20,873 nt of DNA, taken from positions 1 to 20,873 of IMG/VR virus record IMGVR_UViG_3300021500_000009; one strand, given 5' to 3'. The stretch is from a virus. Below the pieces are notes generated by a model. It made no database searches. It saw only the letters and a program-made list of their open reading frames with translations, and was not told the DNA's origin. The position numbers and the translations under genes were made by a program. Each line of letters opens with the position of its first letter. Positions within the stretch are counted from its first letter, which is position 1. Shown in pieces: positions 2,058-20,873 of this stretch.

Positions 2058-2556
2058 TTCTTTAGTAAGTCCTGAAAAGGTAATAGAATGGTTTAGGAAG
2101 GGATTTATAAAAATGAAACCAAAAGATGCAGAAATAGAAAGAAAGAGACAGAAAATGTTAGAACTGCAAGCATTGGCTTATTCTGGGATTGATGAATCTA
2201 TGGATGGCGTAGTAAGAGATGCTATAATCAGTTTTCCCCTTGGCGATAAATATGAAGCTTGGATTCCTGCTTATGCTGCGGAATATATAAATGAAATGGG
2301 CGAAAAAAAATTAGGGAGATTAATTAAAAATATAGAAACAACAAATAATGAAGAGGAGGATAGAATGGAATTTAAAGACATGATTAGATGGGACTATCAT
2401 GGAGGCATTAAAAAGATTGATAATCATTTTCTTGTGCGGTTAGGATGTGAATACCATATCTGTGAAGACATAAAGGAAGTGGCCAAAAGAATTAGAAAAC
2501 TTTTAGAAGAGGAATATTCGAAGGACAATGAAGCTCAAAATTTATTTAGCGGGTGA
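2047..2556 (+). CDS. hypothetical protein, likely TTG start, with a strong internal start signal
   Basis: About 169 residues from a TTG at 2047 that follows GGGGAGG (2035-2041) by five bases. An in-frame ATG at 2032 lies inside that ribosome binding site and has none of its own, so TTG is preferred. The N-terminal part is basic and helical (KPKDAEIERKRQKMLELQAL). The middle contains ISFPLGDKYEAWIPAYAAEY. The last 63 residues start at an internal ATG (2365) with a perfect AGGAGG upstream and may also be made as a separate protein. That part (FKDMIRWDYHGGIKKIDNHF) is beta-rich, then helical. No family recognised. The 3' end overlaps the deoxyribosyltransferase-like gene by 29 bases. Confidence 0.7.
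   Translation: MKNDSLVSPEKVIEWFRKGFIKMKPKDAEIERKRQKMLELQALAYSGIDESMDGVVRDAIISFPLGDKYEAWIPAYAAEYINEMGEKKLGRLIKNIETTNNEEEDRMEFKDMIRWDYHGGIKKIDNHFLVRLGCEYHICEDIKEVAKRIRKLLEEEYSKDNEAQNLFSG
2354..2367 (+). promoter_or_regulatory. internal Shine-Dalgarno and start codon within a CDS
   Basis: AGGAGG at 2354-2359, then five bases, then ATG at 2365, in frame with the surrounding gene. It is as strong as any gene start in this operon and could produce a 63-residue C-terminal product. Confidence 0.45.
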
Positions 2557-2974
2557 TATTTCTAAAGAAGACCGCTGGCGACCCAAGGTAATTAAGGCTC
2601 TTAAAGGTTTACCCGTAGAATGGTTATCGCCACTTGACCAGATAGACTATCGGTATTATCGCCTAAAGAAAGAACATGAAGAGAATCGGGTGTTCTTGTT
2701 CGCCGATTACATGAAGATTGATAGGGCGGATATTGTTTTTGCTTACCTTCGCCGATGCGATAGTCGCCATTCAGGGACATCAGCCGAGATTGGATATGCT
2801 AGGGCGAAAGGGAAGTTTATCATCTATGTTAACGATATGCCTAAGACTGAGGCGTATTTATATGAGTTTATTCAAAGGACAGCCGATATAGCGTTTACTA
2901 AATTAAGGGACGGGATTGAGTTTCTTAAAGACTTTGTGGCCGAAATGAATTATTTGCCCGTGTCTAACGGTTAG
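2528..2974 (+). CDS. nucleoside 2-deoxyribosyltransferase-like protein
   Basis: A 148-residue protein with the pattern of the nucleoside 2-deoxyribosyltransferase family (PF05014). It opens with KIYLAGDI, a beta strand plus turn (residues 4-11), followed by W17. The middle has DYMKIDRADIVFAYL (D60, D65, D68) and then SGTSAEIGYARAKGK, in which E87 fits the catalytic Glu. The length suits the family (about 140-160). Such enzymes move deoxyribose between bases or hydrolyse deoxynucleosides or their monophosphates. In a phage this suggests salvage or reshaping of the nucleotide pool. The next enzyme-like gene but one resembles a nucleotide-modification protein. Substrate unknown. Confidence 0.82.
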   Translation: MKLKIYLAGDISKEDRWRPKVIKALKGLPVEWLSPLDQIDYRYYRLKKEHEENRVFLFADYMKIDRADIVFAYLRRCDSRHSGTSAEIGYARAKGKFIIYVNDMPKTEAYLYEFIQRTADIAFTKLRDGIEFLKDFVAEMNYLPVSNG

Positions 2975-6556: not shown

Positions 6557-8161
6557 CTAATATCCTGTCACAGGATTTCGAGCAAAGCTAATCATTCTAT
6601 TTCTTTTCTTGTTTAATTCCTCTAATTCCGCCACCTTCTTTCTCCTGCCAAAGAATTTATAATACTTACTCAGCATATCGAGTAAATCTACGGTAAAAGA
6701 GTTGGGGTAATTGATTATTTCAGCCTTCAATTCAGTCATTGAACGATGAATATATATCTCGCCATTGAACATCGGATTGATTAGAGCTTTAATATCTATA
6801 TTCTTGGCATCCTTAGTAACATTAGCTTCCATGGGGGAAATCGGGAGATAGACTCCCTTTTCTCTTGCGGCCTCTAGAATATCCTTTCGTATGTATTCTT
6901 GAGCAGCAATTGTTTCTATTTTCCAATGAACAACATTACATTCTTTATGAGCCTTGAATATCTCGTCTATAAAGACAGAAGGCGTCTTAAGTTGTTTAGC
7001 CCATGTATAACGAACAAATTTTTTAATAGAGTTTTTAGGCTGGCCAGCGACTAGGATAGCATTCCTTGAACTTCTCTTGGTGAGTTTCTTCTCGGTAAAT
7101 CCCCCAGGGTCAATAAGTCCATACCAGAGAATAGAGCCAACATCGAATTCTTCTTTGTCATCGTCACAAACTATTATATCACGCCCGTTTTCGTCCTTTT
7201 CAAAATGATAATACCTTATCCAATCGGCCTCAAAAGCATTAAATCCCTCACTACTTTGAGGCATATTCATATGTTGACACCAGAAGATAATTTGTTTCTC
7301 AGGGTTGCTCTTCATTTTTTCATAAACGGAGGTTGAGAAGAAAGGAAAATTACTTTCCCCTTCAGTTACATTGGGGTTATTTATATATTGAATATTAGGT
7401 TTCTGGCGTTTTTTGCAAAGCTCAGTAGATTTAAGACAAGGAACTATCTTCCATTGGTATTCTGGGTATTTTTCCTGAATATAACAGAAAAAATCACCCA
7501 TTGCCCAATGAGTTCCCACTATTTTAATGCGACTACCATCAGCATCAGTCCAATCAGATTTCTTTAAAAGTTCATCTACATTATCGAACCACCGAATAGC
7601 ATCATCTAGAATGGATGGAGATTCGATGGCTCTTTCACCAACAAGGTCATCTATGTGGATAATATCATAATGTCCTGACTGAGCAGCTCCGCCGACACCA
7701 ATGGCTTGAATAGAAGGGACGGGATAAATTCCTTTGCGAGGTAATTCCATGGCTGTCTTTGACCAAGTATGTTTTTTAGTCCAATTCTCATTAACATCTT
7801 TTAGTCTATCCCAATAAACTTTTCTTAACAATCCATTATAGAGTAGTTGTTTTTGAATCCAATCCATAAAATTGGTTACTAACCGTTCATTTTCAGAAAC
7901 CACTAATTGGCAGCATTCTGGATTCTGTAGATATTCCCAAACAACATTCCATCTGGTAAAGACCGTGCTTTTAAACCATGTTCTAGCCATGGCAATCCCC
8001 ATGCGTTTATTAAGGGAGTTCTGAATGAAATCACAAATGGGTTTATGGATTTCTTTAATAATATCACCACCTGCTTCTGGAACAGAGCCACCGATTATCT
8101 TGACAAAATGATAAAAAGAGGAATCACAAAGTTTGCGTAGGAAGGCAATAGAGTATTTCAT
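6557..8161 (-). CDS. terL: terminase large subunit (ATPase and nuclease)
   Basis: 534 residues, the DNA-packaging motor. The N-terminal ATPase has a variant Walker A, ARTWFKST (about residues 59-66, K64), where PRGHFKST-type sequences are usual, and Walker B YDIIHIDD (D171, D172). The THW at about 217-219 fits the coupling motif. The C-terminal RNase H-like nuclease has WYGLIDPGG (D351), HWKIETIAAQ (E416) and LLDMLSKYY (D495). Full length for the family. It is the last gene of the minus-strand operon. No good ribosome binding site lies before its ATG, so coupling to upstream translation is likely. The stop codon directly abuts that of the converging plus-strand gene. Confidence 0.95.
   Translation of the reverse strand: MKYSIAFLRKLCDSSFYHFVKIIGGSVPEAGGDIIKEIHKPICDFIQNSLNKRMGIAMARTWFKSTVFTRWNVVWEYLQNPECCQLVVSENERLVTNFMDWIQKQLLYNGLLRKVYWDRLKDVNENWTKKHTWSKTAMELPRKGIYPVPSIQAIGVGGAAQSGHYDIIHIDDLVGERAIESPSILDDAIRWFDNVDELLKKSDWTDADGSRIKIVGTHWAMGDFFCYIQEKYPEYQWKIVPCLKSTELCKKRQKPNIQYINNPNVTEGESNFPFFSTSVYEKMKSNPEKQIIFWCQHMNMPQSSEGFNAFEADWIRYYHFEKDENGRDIIVCDDDKEEFDVGSILWYGLIDPGGFTEKKLTKRSSRNAILVAGQPKNSIKKFVRYTWAKQLKTPSVFIDEIFKAHKECNVVHWKIETIAAQEYIRKDILEAAREKGVYLPISPMEANVTKDAKNIDIKALINPMFNGEIYIHRSMTELKAEIINYPNSFTVDLLDMLSKYYKFFGRRKKVAELEELNKKRNRMISFARNPVTGY
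6562..6576. terminator. possible weak bidirectional terminator hairpin
   Basis: ATCCTG-TCA-CAGGAT is a perfect 6-bp stem with a 3-base loop, inside the last codons of the large terminase gene and just past the end of the plus-strand operon. It is followed by TTTCG on the plus strand and ATTAG on the minus strand, so there is no real T-run. It is the only hairpin I see at the convergent junction. Confidence 0.25.
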
Positions 8162-8189: not shown

Positions 8190-8215
8190 AGTTAACCTGT
8201 AATTGAAAGTTAACC
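8190..8215. repeat. 8-bp direct repeat before the terminase gene
   Basis: AGTTAACC occurs at 8190-8197 and 8208-8215, an 18-base period. The second copy overlaps the stop codon of the upstream gene. A related GGTTAA lies at 8162-8167 next to the terL start codon. It could be a protein-binding site or chance in AT-rich DNA. Confidence 0.3.
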
Positions 8216-8515
8216 ACTTTCTTTACCAAGCAGTTCTTCCAAGTATTTTTCTTCTTCTGGAGTAAGTTCTGGCTCTTTCTTTTCAGCTTTTTCTTTCTTT
8301 TCTTTAGTAGTCTGCTTCTCGGGTTGAAGAATACCCAACATACGACTGATAATTTTAATGGCCTCATTCTTATCTCGATTGCTGGCATCAGGGTCATCTC
8401 GAATGGCCATAGCGACTTGTAAATTTTTTTCCCATTGGTCAGAATGTTTCGCTCGCCATTCGGCTAATGCTTCTTTTAAAACTTTCTGTTTCAGTTTTTC
8501 CATTGATTTTGACAT
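8210..8515 (-). CDS. possible terminase small subunit
   Basis: 101 residues, highly charged and helical. The first part (KVLKEALAEWRAKHSDQWEKN) is followed by AMAIRDDPDASNRDKNEAIKIISRMLGIL, a helix-turn-helix-like segment similar to those in small terminase or other DNA-binding phage proteins. A Lys/Glu-rich tail follows (PEEEKYLEELLGKESG). Its position directly upstream of terL and its size (about 100-150 residues are usual) support TerS, but no sequence match is certain. AGGAG near 8525-8529 precedes the ATG at long spacing. The 5' end overlaps the upstream gene by 77 bases. Confidence 0.5.
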   Translation of the reverse strand: MSKSMEKLKQKVLKEALAEWRAKHSDQWEKNLQVAMAIRDDPDASNRDKNEAIKIISRMLGILQPEKQTTKEKKEKAEKKEPELTPEEEKYLEELLGKESG

Positions 8516-8918
8516 AGCGCTTTACTTCTCCTGTGGGCTGAAAATAAAGTAAGTATAAACCATGAAATCCCTCTTGTTTAAGGATGCGATAATACTTTAT
8601 ATCGGACTGAGAAAACCTGAAAATAAAATGATGATTATGTATAATAACTATAAGGTCAGAGATTTTATAACCATCTTCGGCCAGAATCTTTTTAAGGTAA
8701 TAAATCGGAATGACAATCTTAGTGTCTAACCGATTAGACAAGCTATATAATTTACCATCCCAAGTTTGGAGTAATAATACTTCATAAGGCTCTCTAAATA
8801 ATTCTTTATAAAGGTCGGCTTTGGACCCATAAATGACTATATCTTCAGGAGAAAGATTAAGGTGGCTGGGTATGATAAACATGATAAATATAATAATAGC
8901 CACCAAAACCCTTCTCAT
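8439..8918 (-). CDS. exported protein with a JAMM/JAB metalloprotease-like motif
   Basis: About 159 residues from ATG 8918; a TTG at 8930 is less likely because a GGA lies eight bases before the ATG. The N-terminus is a signal peptide or anchor (RRVLVAIIIFIMFIIPSHLN). The rest follows the JAB plan: E46 in the strand EVLLLQTWDGKLY, then IIHNHH (H94, H96) and SQSD (S103, D106). The set E...HxH-x6-SxxD is the JAMM metal site, with six instead of the usual seven residues before Ser. JAMM proteases cut isopeptide or peptide bonds. Phage ones are usually cytoplasmic or tail-associated, so an exported one among lysis genes is unusual. Function inferred; an inactive fold is possible. Confidence 0.6.
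   Translation of the reverse strand: MRRVLVAIIIFIMFIIPSHLNLSPEDIVIYGSKADLYKELFREPYEVLLLQTWDGKLYSLSNRLDTKIVIPIYYLKKILAEDGYKISDLIVIIHNHHFIFRFSQSDIKYYRILKQEGFHGLYLLYFQPTGEVKRYVKINGKTETESFKRSISRMASETF
8723..8740. repeat. 7+7 dyad, copy 2
   Basis: On the minus strand TGTCTAA-TCGG-TTAGACA, inside the JAMM-motif gene. It is the same dyad as at 2961-2977 with one extra T in the loop. Confidence 0.35.
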
Positions 8919-8922
8919 CTTA

Positions 8923-9183
8923 TTATCCAAATAAAAAATGCTTTAAGAGCAAAGTGACGATAGTTACAACTAAAGCTACTGTCCCCCCAATAGCTCCAAC
9001 TTTAACTTGAACGCCCGTCATTCTGTTTTCTAACTTTTCTAAACGATATTTAATTTCCTGCTGACCCTGCTTAAATTCTTCTTTCATTTCTTTTTGAGCT
9101 TCTCCTATATCTTCTAATGCTCGTTTAACATATCCTCGCCATTCAGCAGTTTTCATTTTGAAGTCGCTGTTTATCTCTCCCAT
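8923..9183 (-). CDS. XhlA-like coiled-coil membrane protein, holin-associated
   Basis: 86 residues. The N-terminal two thirds is a charged coiled coil (ALEDIGEAQKEMKEEFKQGQ, then EIKYRLEKLENRMTGVQ) and residues 62-83 form one membrane segment (GAIGGTVALVVTIVTLLL). This is the plan of XhlA/BhlA-type haemolysin-like proteins that assist phage holins. AGGAGG lies just before the ATG. It sits between the trans-envelope protein and the JAMM protein in the lysis part of the late operon, which supports a lysis role. The next ATG (8918) lies five bases past its last codon. Confidence 0.6.
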   Translation of the reverse strand: MGEINSDFKMKTAEWRGYVKRALEDIGEAQKEMKEEFKQGQQEIKYRLEKLENRMTGVQVKVGAIGGTVALVVTIVTLLLKHFLFG

Positions 9184-9245: not shown

Positions 9246-9914
9246 TCAAAATTTCAAATTCAGTCCAACATAAGGTTTGGAGTTTATAAAATCATATCCA
9301 GCAACCAGATTAAGAGAGTAAGTCTTTACCTCTAGTGTCTTGTATTTAAGGCTCAAGCCAATTAGATAATCATCTATTTGTCTATCTTTAACTTTCACCC
9401 CTATCTCTGAGCCTAGATAGATTTTCCATACTCGAATATAATCCAGCGAAAGACAGTGATAAATCTTGTTGCTAGCCACCAACGAATAACCAAGCCTAAA
9501 ATCAAAAGCCACAATCGGCGGCTTCCATTCAGTTATAGAAATCTCAGTTTTGTTATCTGCTATTGTATAAAAATTATCTTTTTTATCTACCACAAGTATG
9601 GTCTTTATCTCTTGACCTTCGGGTGTTTCAGTTTTTATTTCAATTGTTCTCTTTACTAGCTCAGGTCGGATGGGTAATTTCTTTTTCTCTATCGGTGGCT
9701 TATCTGGAGTAATGGGAGTCTTAATAACGGGCGGCCTATAAATCTTTTCTTCAATAGGTTTGGCTTTATTTGCATTATACTGCATATATGAACGGTCATT
9801 ATTGCACCGTTGGATATAAATTACCCCCCAGATTAAGGCCAATACTAAAATAAGACCTAGTCCTGCCCGCAAAATATTACTAATGGCAGTTAAGGTCTCA
9901 GTAAATCTACTCAT
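9246..9914 (-). CDS. putative trans-envelope protein: inner-membrane anchor, Pro-rich linker, beta-barrel-like C-terminus (spanin position)
   Basis: 222 residues. One membrane segment lies at about 16-34 (GLGLILVLALIWGVIYI). A Pro/Lys-rich TonB-like linker follows at about 50-87 (RPPVIKTPITPDKPPIEKKK), then a charged strand-rich stretch. Residues 130-222 show about six alternating polar/apolar strands (for example FDFRLGYSLV, IYLGSEIGVKV, DDYLIGLSLKY, YSLNLVAGYDF). The end is PYVGLNLKF, with a terminal Phe and apolar residues at every second position, as in outer-membrane protein beta-signals. It lies directly after the holin, where T7 carries its spanin. A spanin-like role joining inner and outer membranes at lysis is my inference. 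Similar plans (DUF6808-type) exist elsewhere from memory. Confidence 0.6.
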   Translation of the reverse strand: MSRFTETLTAISNILRAGLGLILVLALIWGVIYIQRCNNDRSYMQYNANKAKPIEEKIYRPPVIKTPITPDKPPIEKKKLPIRPELVKRTIEIKTETPEGQEIKTILVVDKKDNFYTIADNKTEISITEWKPPIVAFDFRLGYSLVASNKIYHCLSLDYIRVWKIYLGSEIGVKVKDRQIDDYLIGLSLKYKTLEVKTYSLNLVAGYDFINSKPYVGLNLKF

Positions 9915-9999: not shown

Positions 10000-10010
10000 C
10001 GGGACTAAGT
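9974..10010. repeat. three copies of a 10-mer (one inverted, two direct)
   Basis: ACTTAGTCCC at 9974-9983 is the inverse complement of GGGACTAAGT at 9990-9999 and again at 10001-10010. The last two are direct repeats one base apart, so two alternative hairpins are possible. The pattern looks like a short local duplication of a terminator arm. Confidence 0.7.
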
Positions 10011-10190
10011 CTTGTATTTATCTTGTTTCTGAACAAGCCTCTTAGTGATATAAGCAACAAAGCCAATCGTCAATTGAGTAGCAAAAGCAAGGAAAGGGGC
10101 GTCGGGATAAAATGTTACCCATACATACGCCCCCACCATGGCAAAGAGATAGATAAGCAAAGCAAGCGGGCTAGGAATATTTATTTTCAT
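10005..10190 (-). CDS. holin-like small membrane protein
   Basis: 61 residues with two membrane segments, about 8-27 (LALLIYLFAMVGAYVWVTFY) and 32-50 (PFLAFATQLTIGFVAYITK), a short polar turn (PDAP) and a basic tail (KRLVQKQDKYKT). This fits small two-segment holins, which accumulate in the inner membrane and open it for the endolysin. The start overlaps the stop of the giant virion protein (ATGA), so it is translated late with the virion genes. It is followed by a strong terminator. The peptidase likely to act with it lies 7 kb away. Confidence 0.65.
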   Translation of the reverse strand: MKINIPSPLALLIYLFAMVGAYVWVTFYPDAPFLAFATQLTIGFVAYITKRLVQKQDKYKT

Positions 10191-17031: not shown

Positions 17032-17547
17032 TTAAAAAATTCGCCTCAGCAAAATGTTTGTGTAATACTTTTCATCCCACTTGAACCCGTATTTCTGACG
17101 CCCCTCAATTTTGAATCCTAATTTTTCATACAATTTAGCCATCTTTTCATCAGGCGTCTGAGTAAACAATCTTTTTAACTTAAATGCCTTGGCGATTTTT
17201 TGAATTAAATTATCTATGTCCTTATGGAGTTTATGAGAATACTTGCCATTCCATAACATCAAAAAGAACTCTCCCTTATGCTTTTGATATACATTCATAA
17301 ACCCCACAATGCCCTTCATATCCTTAATCTCATAAAAAAGATTTAAAGGATTAAGAAGACTAGCATAAATCAATTGCCAGATAGCATCATAATTCCGTCC
17401 CTCATCAGGAATCCATAACGGCCGTTGATAAAGTTGCTCAGCGATAACCCCTAACCGCTTGTCTTTAAAGTCTTTCACTATAAAAACCTTAAGTCTCGTC
17501 GATGGATTGAGAAATTCCTTAATAGTCTGTCCAGCGACATCCTTCAC
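17032..17547 (-). CDS. GNAT-like acetyltransferase fold protein
   Basis: About 171 residues from a GTG at 17547, chosen because GGAGG (17554-17558) lies six bases upstream; a TTG at 17565 lacks a site. The plan follows GNAT proteins: YEIKDMKGIVGFMNVYQKHK in the middle, then a helix NLIQKIAKAFKLKRLFTQT and the typical end MAKLYEKLGFKIEGRQKYGF followed by a last strand. The acetyl-CoA loop (Q/RxxGxG/A) is not clear, so activity is uncertain. GNAT-like genes are frequent among phage virion genes, for reasons I do not know. It overlaps the upstream peptidase gene by 29 bases. Confidence 0.65.
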   Translation of the reverse strand: MKDVAGQTIKEFLNPSTRLKVFIVKDFKDKRLGVIAEQLYQRPLWIPDEGRNYDAIWQLIYASLLNPLNLFYEIKDMKGIVGFMNVYQKHKGEFFLMLWNGKYSHKLHKDIDNLIQKIAKAFKLKRLFTQTPDEKMAKLYEKLGFKIEGRQKYGFKWDEKYYTNILLRRIF

Positions 17548-17956
17548 GCCATTCCTCCAATACAATGGGATAAATGAAATATCCTACATCTATATGAATA
17601 AAAGTGCCTGTCTTTTCATATGTTCCTTTTCTGAGATTCGGTAACCATCGTTCAATAAGGCCATCTAACTCTCTTACTTCCTCTATTGTCGGTAAATCTA
17701 AATCTAATGCTAATCCAAATAAATGGACACTCAACGGCACGCCACCGACTTTCTTGTTGTATCGAGGGCATCTATACCCGCTTGAGATTTTAATCGGTTT
17801 GCCCCATTTCTCTCGTATTAGCTCAAATGATTCAAAAAGAATGTTATAAGGCATTACTATGCCATCCCGCTCCAATTGATATGGAATTCTATGGCAACAT
17901 GGACACTCGTATTCGCTTCTTAGAATGTATGGGGCAATATATTTGCTATCTGTCAA
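17519..17956 (-). CDS. peptidase M15 (PF08291-like) peptidoglycan peptidase
   Basis: 145 residues. PIKISSGYRCPRYNKKVGGV is followed by SVHLFGLALDLD (H78, D85) and FIHIDVG (H121), the zinc ligands and fold of M15A peptidases, which cut D-Ala-D-Ala or L-Ala-D-Glu bonds of peptidoglycan. An N-terminal ECPCCHR knuckle is usual in the phage M15A_3 type. The start is a TTG at 17956 with GGAAAGG upstream; no in-frame ATG occurs before residue 35. There is no signal peptide. It could be the endolysin needing the holin at 10005-10190, or a virion lysin, since it lies among virion genes 7 kb from the lysis genes. Confidence 0.88.
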   Translation of the reverse strand: MTDSKYIAPYILRSEYECPCCHRIPYQLERDGIVMPYNILFESFELIREKWGKPIKISSGYRCPRYNKKVGGVPLSVHLFGLALDLDLPTIEEVRELDGLIERWLPNLRKGTYEKTGTFIHIDVGYFIYPIVLEEWREGCRWTDY

Positions 17957-18367: not shown

Positions 18368-18601
18368 TTAATCATTTTTTTGTTTTTTGGGCGTTTCTAA
18401 CTTTATAAAATACTCATTATTTTGAGTTAATTGCCATCGTTCTTCTTTTATATCAATTCCCAGCTCCAAAGCCACAGTCTCAATCGCCCGCTGAAGCTCT
18501 GCCTGCTTCTGCTTAGCTAATCGGATGGCGTCCTGCACTATTAGCTTTTTTAGCCTCAGAAGCTCTCTCTGGCTCTCCATGAGTTTTATTTTTTGGGTCA
18601 T
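18368..18601 (-). CDS. small coiled-coil protein
   Basis: 77 residues. Residues 5-45 form a long charged helix (ESQRELLRLKKLIVQDAIRL; KQKQAELQRAIETVALELGI), followed by IKEERWQLTQNNEYFIKLET and a Lys-rich tail. GAGGGG lies before the ATG. It may be a small assembly or scaffold-type protein of the fibre region. No family recognised. Confidence 0.6.
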   Translation of the reverse strand: MTQKIKLMESQRELLRLKKLIVQDAIRLAKQKQAELQRAIETVALELGIDIKEERWQLTQNNEYFIKLETPKKQKND

Positions 18602-19072: not shown

Positions 19073-20873
19073 TTATATGAAGGCTGATGCTTGGTCTGCC
19101 CCTGCTGTATCTGCTGTGCCTGGGTCGCTATGGTTGCCAGATGAGCCAGAACATTCAGTGCCTAGAACTCGTATTTGTCCTACATATTCTGCATACGCCC
19201 CCCATGTTCCGTTGTTATTACCAAAATTATCCCGAATATAAGTAAGCCCCGAATATTTTGCGTGTATACCATATTTATTATTATCACTTATGCCAGTATT
19301 GTGAATATAAGTAAAATTATTTGCCGAAGAAACAACCCCTCCATACAACGCACTATTTAATGTGTTGTTTTTTACAATCCCACAATATCGCAAGTCATTG
19401 AAAAAGGAAAATTCAACTTGAATACCGGTTACTCCATTCTCACAAAATCCACAGTAATATATTTCCAGATAAAAATTTCGGTATGCTGTGATGCCATAAT
19501 ATTTTGCCTTGTATATCCCAATTCCATTTAATTTAATATATACAGAATTGTTAAATATATGAAGATTGCGGCTTCTTGTCTCCCCCCCATCTATTAAAGC
19601 CCCTACAATTATATATTTTGATGTATTATCAGGCTGTGTTCCTGGCCATGAGGCTACTGTCAGGCTTGTAGCATCATTTCCTGTTATCTGGACAAATCCG
19701 TTGTCTGTTCCTGTTCCAGCTACAATCAAAACCCAACAATTTTGGAATTCATTAGTCGTCCAAGATTGATTTGTGTCTTGAAGTGTCGTAGAAGTTGCTC
19801 CTGTCGCTGTCGGGATTGCTCCACTTTTTGGGAAATAGTTTTCAGCTTGAATGATTATCCCAGCATCATTTGTTAGGCCGTGTTTATTACTTAATTCGCA
19901 AGTTTCAGTCAAGGTTGTTCCCTTTTTAATTGTCACCGTAACTTGATGGGCAATTAAATCGGGCATATCGACTATCATATCCGCCCAAGTTGCATAATCG
20001 CCACCTGAGCCTATGGTCTTGCTCCATGAAGCCGTGGTTTTGTTTGAAAGATTAGGAATATTATCCAATTTTTGCCCATTCCAATCAAACGCCGAACTCG
20101 CCTTCCCTGAAAGCTGAGCCAGGATTTCAGCATCTGTCCGACTCTCAAGCCCTGAAGATGTCGCCCTGACAAGATTGCCCGCAGTAAGTCCCGAGGCTTG
20201 GTCAACTTGGAGAATCTTGTTATCCGCTATACCTACATCCACATTAAAAGTTCTACTAGCAGAAATATCACCTCCACCAATCAAGCCTGTTCCCGCAGTT
20301 AAGGTGACTGATGTATGGTCTATATGTTCATTAGCAACAAAATCAGCAAACGAATCATGAGAGAGATTATAAATATTTGATGGTGAAGATAATGTCAAAT
20401 CGTTGAATGTAGGGCTTGCGGTTGTTCGGACATCCTGGTCAAGGTGATAACCATCTGTAGTTTCAGCATCTATCCCTAGGGCATCATGGGTGGCTTTGGT
20501 ATGGTCAGCTTGTTTAACATAAATGCTATCCAAAATTTCAGTGCTTGAAGGAATCTCCCAGCGACTCCCCGAAACACCTTGATAATAGATTTTCACTGTC
20601 GGGGCATTTCCGCTTCCGCTAACCGAGGCATAGATTTTCCCGACTATTCTTGAGCCTGAATCAGGGGTATAATCAGAATCCAAGGTTAAAGGCACTATAT
20701 AGCTTGTTTTTACGCCCATATCCAGCTCATTACTCTCCGATGAGGTAGCAACTAGAACTTCTGAATCATCAGTCTTTCGCTCATAAAGCTTCCAATAGAG
20801 CCTAAGAGTCTTTGTGCCTGAAGTTTTCTCGGCGAAAATAAACCAATCAAAAATCCCCCGAAGTAACTTAGTC
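19073..20873 (-). CDS. tail fibre / tailspike protein (5' end missing)
   Basis: At least 599 residues. The frame stays open past the in-frame ATG at 20719 to the right edge, and the residues upstream (GIFDWFIFAEKTSG, LRLYWKLYERKTDD) form one domain with those after it, so the gene is cut off by the window. Then come fibre-type repeats (TASPTFNDLTLSS; HIDHTSVTLTAGTGLIGGGD) and, from SKTIGSGGDYATWADMI on, a right-handed beta-helix typical of tailspikes (LNGIGIYKAKYYGITAYRNF and similar rungs). Such proteins bind, and sometimes cleave, surface polysaccharide. No catalytic residues can be assigned. The end (CSGSSGNHSDPGTADTAGAD) looks non-globular. Confidence 0.85.
   Translation of the reverse strand, partial: TKLLRGIFDWFIFAEKTSGTKTLRLYWKLYERKTDDSEVLVATSSESNELDMGVKTSYIVPLTLDSDYTPDSGSRIVGKIYASVSGSGNAPTVKIYYQGVSGSRWEIPSSTEILDSIYVKQADHTKATHDALGIDAETTDGYHLDQDVRTTASPTFNDLTLSSPSNIYNLSHDSFADFVANEHIDHTSVTLTAGTGLIGGGDISASRTFNVDVGIADNKILQVDQASGLTAGNLVRATSSGLESRTDAEILAQLSGKASSAFDWNGQKLDNIPNLSNKTTASWSKTIGSGGDYATWADMIVDMPDLIAHQVTVTIKKGTTLTETCELSNKHGLTNDAGIIIQAENYFPKSGAIPTATGATSTTLQDTNQSWTTNEFQNCWVLIVAGTGTDNGFVQITGNDATSLTVASWPGTQPDNTSKYIIVGALIDGGETRSRNLHIFNNSVYIKLNGIGIYKAKYYGITAYRNFYLEIYYCGFCENGVTGIQVEFSFFNDLRYCGIVKNNTLNSALYGGVVSSANNFTYIHNTGISDNNKYGIHAKYSGLTYIRDNFGNNNGTWGAYAEYVGQIRVLGTECSGSSGNHSDPGTADTAGADQASAFI

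Follow-up and report, generated by a model that had tools for sequence, protein, structure and literature searches.

A candidate one-protein spanin-like bridge with an outer-membrane-protein-like end in uncultivated phages

The locus and its homologues

The window analysed here is the whole of a 20.9-kb viral record. The gene of interest (the candidate) is an open reading frame at positions 9246-9914 on the minus strand, the plus strand at this location being full of stops. It encodes a protein of 222 residues, with a predicted inner membrane (IM) helix, a Pro/Lys linker and a β-rich end resembling an outer membrane protein (OMP). On the minus strand the gene order is an internal-virion-like gene, a 61-aa membrane gene, the candidate, an 86-aa gene, a 163-aa gene, and the small and large terminases. 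The 61-aa protein (10005..10190, minus) is judged from its sequence to be a small holin-like membrane protein; it has counterparts in contigs L008 and L009, and profile search gave no family match for it. The 86-aa protein (8923..9183, minus) is a coiled coil with a C-terminal transmembrane (TM) helix and is XhlA-like (phrog_1103, E 6e-4; hemolysin phrog_937, E 0.046). The small terminase (8210..8515, minus) is a likely assignment by position, while the large terminase (6557..8161, minus) matches phrog_38 (E 5e-43). An M15 peptidase (17519..17956, minus; PF08291, E 1.8e-15; phrog_894, E 1.6e-20) is the endolysin of this phage. A preliminary description had placed the candidate right after the holin, in the position of T7 Rz. 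It does follow the holin-like gene, but the comparison with T7 is approximate only: T7 Rz lies between its two terminase genes, and the candidate precedes the small terminase.

Two other genes of the window deserve mention. The 163-aa protein (8439-8930, minus) has an N-terminal hydrophobic segment and the sequence HNHHFIFRFSQSD, which recalls a JAMM/RadC metal site, although its spacing is shorter than usual by one residue and there is no Pfam match above the cut-off; the gene is conserved beside the candidate in L008. At 2528-2974 (plus) there is a nucleoside 2-deoxyribosyltransferase-like gene (PF05014, E 1e-12).

Homologues of the candidate were seen in uncultivated viral contigs only. One is 96% identical to the window protein (L001/G006), one is a 118-residue fragment with 93% identity (L002), one is 66% identical (L008/G003), and the remaining four (L014, L015/G001, L016/G004 and L019/G002) are 63-69% identical. 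No homologue was found in 50,697 phage records (INPHARED, tblastn, E 10), two scans of GTDB genomes, using candidate patterns and the G001-type terminase, revealed no host or prophage, and other viral scans with different patterns produced no additional relatives. Among the homologues dN/dS is 0.08-0.13 where dS is not saturated, and the candidate is therefore not a chance reading frame but a real, constrained gene, on which purifying selection acts in the seven related contigs.

Profile searches matched the candidate to no spanin, Pfam, PHROG, NCBIfam or PDB sequence family. Two homologues gave a weak match to TIGR04526 (best E 0.006), judged not to be meaningful. DUF6808 (PF20647; threshold 24.4 bits), a family named in the preliminary description, gave no match at E <= 10. 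DUF6549 (PF20186; threshold 27.4 bits) was likewise rejected, no Pfam match being found with the same library that recovers B40-8 gp11. A virion structural protein was also considered and rejected, the gene being among lysis genes and the protein having a membrane anchor; no homologue is a known virion protein.

Predicted anatomy of the protein

The sole hydrophobic helix is N-terminal (residues 16-36; 9807..9869, minus), in agreement with the earlier description, and 12 of its 21 positions are invariant. The C-terminus is β structure, and has no TM helix. A lipobox scan found no lipobox in the protein, Cys37 being preceded by IQR, and no signal peptidase I cleavage site, hence no cleavable signal peptide, was found. 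A cleaved or lipoprotein signal is thereby ruled out, which leaves the helix as an uncleaved anchor. Its positive-inside charge is ambiguous, which counts against the spanin-like reading given below.

The helix is followed by a variable spacer (residues 37-58, 35% identity) and then by a Pro/Lys stretch (residues 59-82; 9669..9740, minus), which reads YRPPVIKTPITPDKPPIEKKKLPI in the candidate and has the consensus YRPPVxKTPITPDKPPxEKKKLP. The Pro/Lys linker had been noted before; it turns out to be the most conserved part of the protein, with 21 of 24 positions invariant. A mere spacer needs no such conservation, and this sequence pattern suggests that the stretch probably binds some partner. 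The linker as a whole is 50-58 residues long, or about 15-18 nm when extended. No periplasmic coiled coil is found; the protein has the proline-rich linker and the β domain instead.

AlphaFold2 was used to model the C-terminal domain (residues 84-222), with an alignment of six homologues. The mean pLDDT is 80.8 (about 91 for the C-terminal 90 residues) and the pTM is 0.57; a full-length model, based on three sequences only, has a pLDDT of 41. The domain is predicted to end in a meander of six confident consecutive strands with short turns (residues 135-147, 151-162, 165-176, 179-196, 199-208 and 213-221, within the segment 131-222; 9249..9524, minus), although such strands could still belong to a soluble barrel or sandwich. 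This agrees well with the β-rich end of about 93 residues, closing in PYVGLNLKF, that was described from the sequence. Upstream of it, in residues 83-130 (9525..9668, minus), there are three weaker strands (87-96, 102-110 and 115-119; pLDDT about 55-75). It had been argued that a protein with six strands must oligomerise, but this does not follow, because the three upstream strands could contribute.

Several features of this domain resemble those of an OMP. Hydrophobicity alternates along the strands, whose limits are taken from the model, with a score of 0.72 as against 0.40 in shuffled sequences (p=0.009). In the window protein the aromatic residues form two bands: counted from the tips of the presumed outer hairpins, they lie at distances of 2-6 and 10-14 residues, and distances 7-9 are free of aromatics; the exception in the homologues is a Phe where the window protein has Leu141. 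Given this exception, the bands give mild support to an OMP-like end. The last eight residues, YVGLNLKF (215-222; 9249..9272, minus), fit the consensus of the β-signal recognized by the BAM machinery. A regular expression for this signal, run on 505 ORFs from seven phage contigs, matched six, all of them being the candidate gene (6/6 homologues, 0/499 other ORFs), and nothing follows the final Phe. When an N-terminal TM helix and a C-terminal β-signal were required together, the candidate family alone matched among all the contigs fetched and eight reference phages, which include A-4L, Pf-WMP4, KHP30 and BPP-1, listed as spanin-less (PMC6139136).

Other features point the other way. A Foldseek search with the domain model gave no match at E <= 0.001, and so no significant OMP match; the weaker matches include outer membrane (OM) barrels of a phage and of bacteria (Vibrio phage nt-1 R9TIU5 and Omp33) and also soluble barrels. 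A monomeric OM barrel does not typically consist of six strands joined by very short turns. Cys154 is within a predicted barrel strand, which is unusual for an OMP and counts against a barrel. It is worth adding that Cys154 and Cys37, the latter beside the IM helix, are both invariant in the homologues, and that it is not obvious how they would pair if the protein's ends sit in separate membranes.

The lysis region in two phage types and their relatives

The gene order in G003 is identical to that of the window. Contigs G001, G002 and G004 represent another phage type, having a terminase of a different family, and there is no terminase or portal among the genes common to the two types. In G001 and G002 the candidate is followed by a coiled-coil/TM protein of 85-87 aa and then by a TM protein of 46-48 aa, the coiled-coil/TM gene (86 aa in the window) thus being the positional partner of the candidate in both phage types. 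An M15 endolysin (phrog_465, Peptidase_M15_4) is found upstream of the candidate, at a distance of about 1.1 kb in G001 and 3.5 kb in G002.

The remaining genes common to both types comprise a segment of the tail fibre and small accessory genes. The tail-fibre segments (window 19073-20719, minus) share 69-89% identity with genes of G001 and G002, phages otherwise unrelated to that of the window, and a 77-aa gene (window 18368-18601, minus) is 77-80% identical to its counterpart there. These sequence identities indicate a recent exchange of host-recognition genes. Since the tail-fibre segment is likewise common to both types, the candidate travels with a gene facing the host envelope. As a separate observation, a TROVE/Ro60-like protein (L019:4411-5922; PF05731, E 3e-40) adjoins the candidate in G002, and the annotation of crAss001 likewise includes a TROVE protein.

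The same gene position was surveyed in related phages, as had been suggested. L048 has a terminase with 58% identity to that of G001 and G002. Its M15 endolysin gene is followed by two small genes, the gene of a 95-aa lipoprotein, two more small genes, an XhlA-like gene (phrog_937, E 1.6e-4; phrog_739 Rz-like, E 0.058), a 67-aa ORF, a likely small terminase of 101 aa, and the large terminase. The lipoprotein (L048:5507-5794), which has an LLSC lipobox and occupies the slot of the candidate, is likely to be an unannotated o-spanin. In L009, whose terminase is 50% identical to that of the window, the slot is occupied by a coiled-coil protein that has an N-terminal TM helix and matches Rz-like proteins weakly (E 0.15). 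We note that, in the slot of the candidate, L009:7708-8328 encodes a 206-aa protein with N- and C-terminal membrane helices flanking a coiled coil and no lipobox, an odd i-spanin-like topology.

A six-frame lipobox scan was conducted on seven contigs, which may be incomplete. It found no lipobox ORF in six of these possibly incomplete contigs. In the seventh, G001, the scan gave one doubtful 48-aa TM protein, and the motif is absent from its G002 counterpart. Run on L048, the same scan recovered the lipoprotein there, a positive control. On this sequence evidence, the phages that carry the candidate appear to encode no credible partner lipoprotein.

A probable spanin-like bridge, its alternatives and known systems

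The candidate was tested for a lipobox, a C-terminal helix, a coiled coil and a lipoprotein partner, and none of these was found. It therefore belongs to neither described spanin class, as the preliminary description had recognized. In the literature library searched, no example of an OMP-type spanin had been reported. The idea was nevertheless foreseen: the spanin survey states that proteins of other topologies would escape its criteria, and that the part of an o-spanin could be played by an OMP (PMC6139136).

The best explanation, which we consider probable, is that the candidate is a one-protein spanin-like periplasmic bridge, with a topology that has not been described for spanins. This proposal draws on the anatomy (an uncleaved N-terminal TM helix, a confident β meander and a β-signal unique to the family), on the context (an M15 endolysin upstream in G001 and G002 and, immediately after the candidate, a coiled-coil/TM gene in both phage types, whose terminases are unrelated), and on the carriers' lack of a credible ORF for a lipoprotein. 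The strongest argument that the candidate acts as a spanin, although an indirect one, is that non-homologous periplasm-facing lysis proteins replace the candidate in relatives. The original suggestion of a spanin is supported in part, by anatomy, lysis-module context and missing lipoprotein partner; insertion into the OM, a closed barrel, an oligomer and lysis itself are what we infer. If the protein is such a bridge, it is more likely than not that its OM end is embedded in the membrane. The complete proposal, a third spanin class in which a single protein takes the place of lipoprotein-anchored spanins, its IM helix being joined by a periplasmic Pro/Lys linker to an OM barrel end that BAM inserts, is more tentative, and we would put it at somewhat below an even chance.

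A possible mechanism, for which a diderm host envelope is assumed, is as follows. The N-terminal helix would be a signal anchor that escapes cleavage and remains in the inner membrane, and the Pro/Lys linker would thread the peptidoglycan and reach the outer membrane. Host BAM would recognize the C-terminal β domain by its β-signal, and the domain would insert into the OM or dock on it, the OM end perhaps being an oligomer or including the three strands upstream. The peptidoglycan mesh would cage the bridges for as long as the wall lasted; after its removal by holin and endolysin they could gather in clusters and draw the inner and outer membranes together or fuse them. Such joining or fusion of membranes after loss of the wall has been proposed for the known spanins, Rz-Rz1 and T1 gp11 (PMC6139136).

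The main rival overlaps with this explanation in function and differs at the OM end. It takes the candidate to be an IM-anchored, i-spanin-like lysis protein whose soluble β domain docks on the OM or on a host OM protein, with no membrane barrel. There are precedents of a similar kind: B40-8 gp11 (DUF6549, E 4e-27) adjoins the endolysin and crAss001 gp27 (DUF6549, E 0.0017) is in a lysis block, each with an N-terminal TM helix, a β-rich end and no lipobox. Moreover, the alternation of the strands equally suits a soluble sheet, soluble barrels are among the Foldseek matches, and Cys154 is invariant. However, the terminal β-signal is strictly conserved, with nothing beyond the Phe, and is absent from the DUF6549 proteins of Bacteroides phages, and the two aromatic bands weigh mildly against soluble docking as well. 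We regard this rival as unlikely, but as one to be taken seriously.

A second alternative is that an IM-tethered OMP kills by inserting its barrel into the IM or by blocking the assembly of OMPs, which would make the candidate an accessory holin or envelope poison and not a spanin. The parallel is LamB(A23D), an OMP tethered to the IM by an uncleaved signal, which is lethal on induction, an effect attributed to Skp-dependent pore formation in the IM (PMC4817254). Against this, small holin-like membrane proteins are already encoded by these phages, a poison has no need of a conserved linker of periplasmic length, and the slot is equivalent to that of the L048 lipoprotein; we consider it improbable. 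Marginally less probable again is a surface or periplasmic protein with no part in lysis, for example one that excludes superinfection or masks a receptor, which would fit with the passage of surface-related genes (tail-fibre segment and 77-aa gene) between the types, but not with the late-gene position amid lysis and packaging genes in both types, nor with the lipoprotein or N-TM coiled-coil protein that relatives have in its stead.

Both described spanin classes hold the OM by a lipid anchor. If the bridge proposed here is correct, what lysis needs is the bridging of two membranes and not the lipoprotein, and the IM-tethered OMP, a laboratory oddity, becomes a natural lysis device. The spanin survey found no spanin in 91 of 677 phages (PMC6139136), for which the candidate suggests one concrete topology.

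The candidate can be compared with several known systems. In trimeric autotransporters a coiled-coil stalk precedes about four strands in each protomer, whereas the candidate has six strands and no coiled coil. With BAM-dependent OM β-barrel proteins it shares alternating strands, aromatic bands and a C-terminal aromatic β-signal, but it is unlike them in having an uncleaved IM anchor, only six confident strands, short turns and a Cys in a strand. Barrels of this kind close with at least 8 strands or with the equivalent in an oligomer; the model of the candidate gives six confident strands and three weaker ones. The DUF6549 proteins (B40-8 gp11 and crAss001 gp27) are similarly single N-TM proteins of the lysis block with a β-rich C-terminus and no lipobox, but they have a coiled-coil stem in place of the Pro/Lys linker, no C-terminal β-signal, and no sequence match to the candidate. 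Lambda Rz shares the N-terminal IM helix, and lambda Rz1 has an essential-looking proline-rich stretch, as does the candidate; the stretch in Rz1 is sensitive to mutation (PMC6139136), which parallels the conserved stretch described here. Unlike Rz/Rz1, the candidate is a single protein without a coiled coil or lipoprotein partner. In this it is like T1 gp11 (u-spanin, SpaninDB), which is also one protein thought to span the periplasm, with a β-rich periplasmic part, in the lysis region and with no partner. The two differ in how they are held: in T1 gp11 an N-terminal lipobox serves the OM and a C-terminal helix the IM, whereas the candidate has no lipobox and combines an N-terminal IM helix with an OMP-like OM end.
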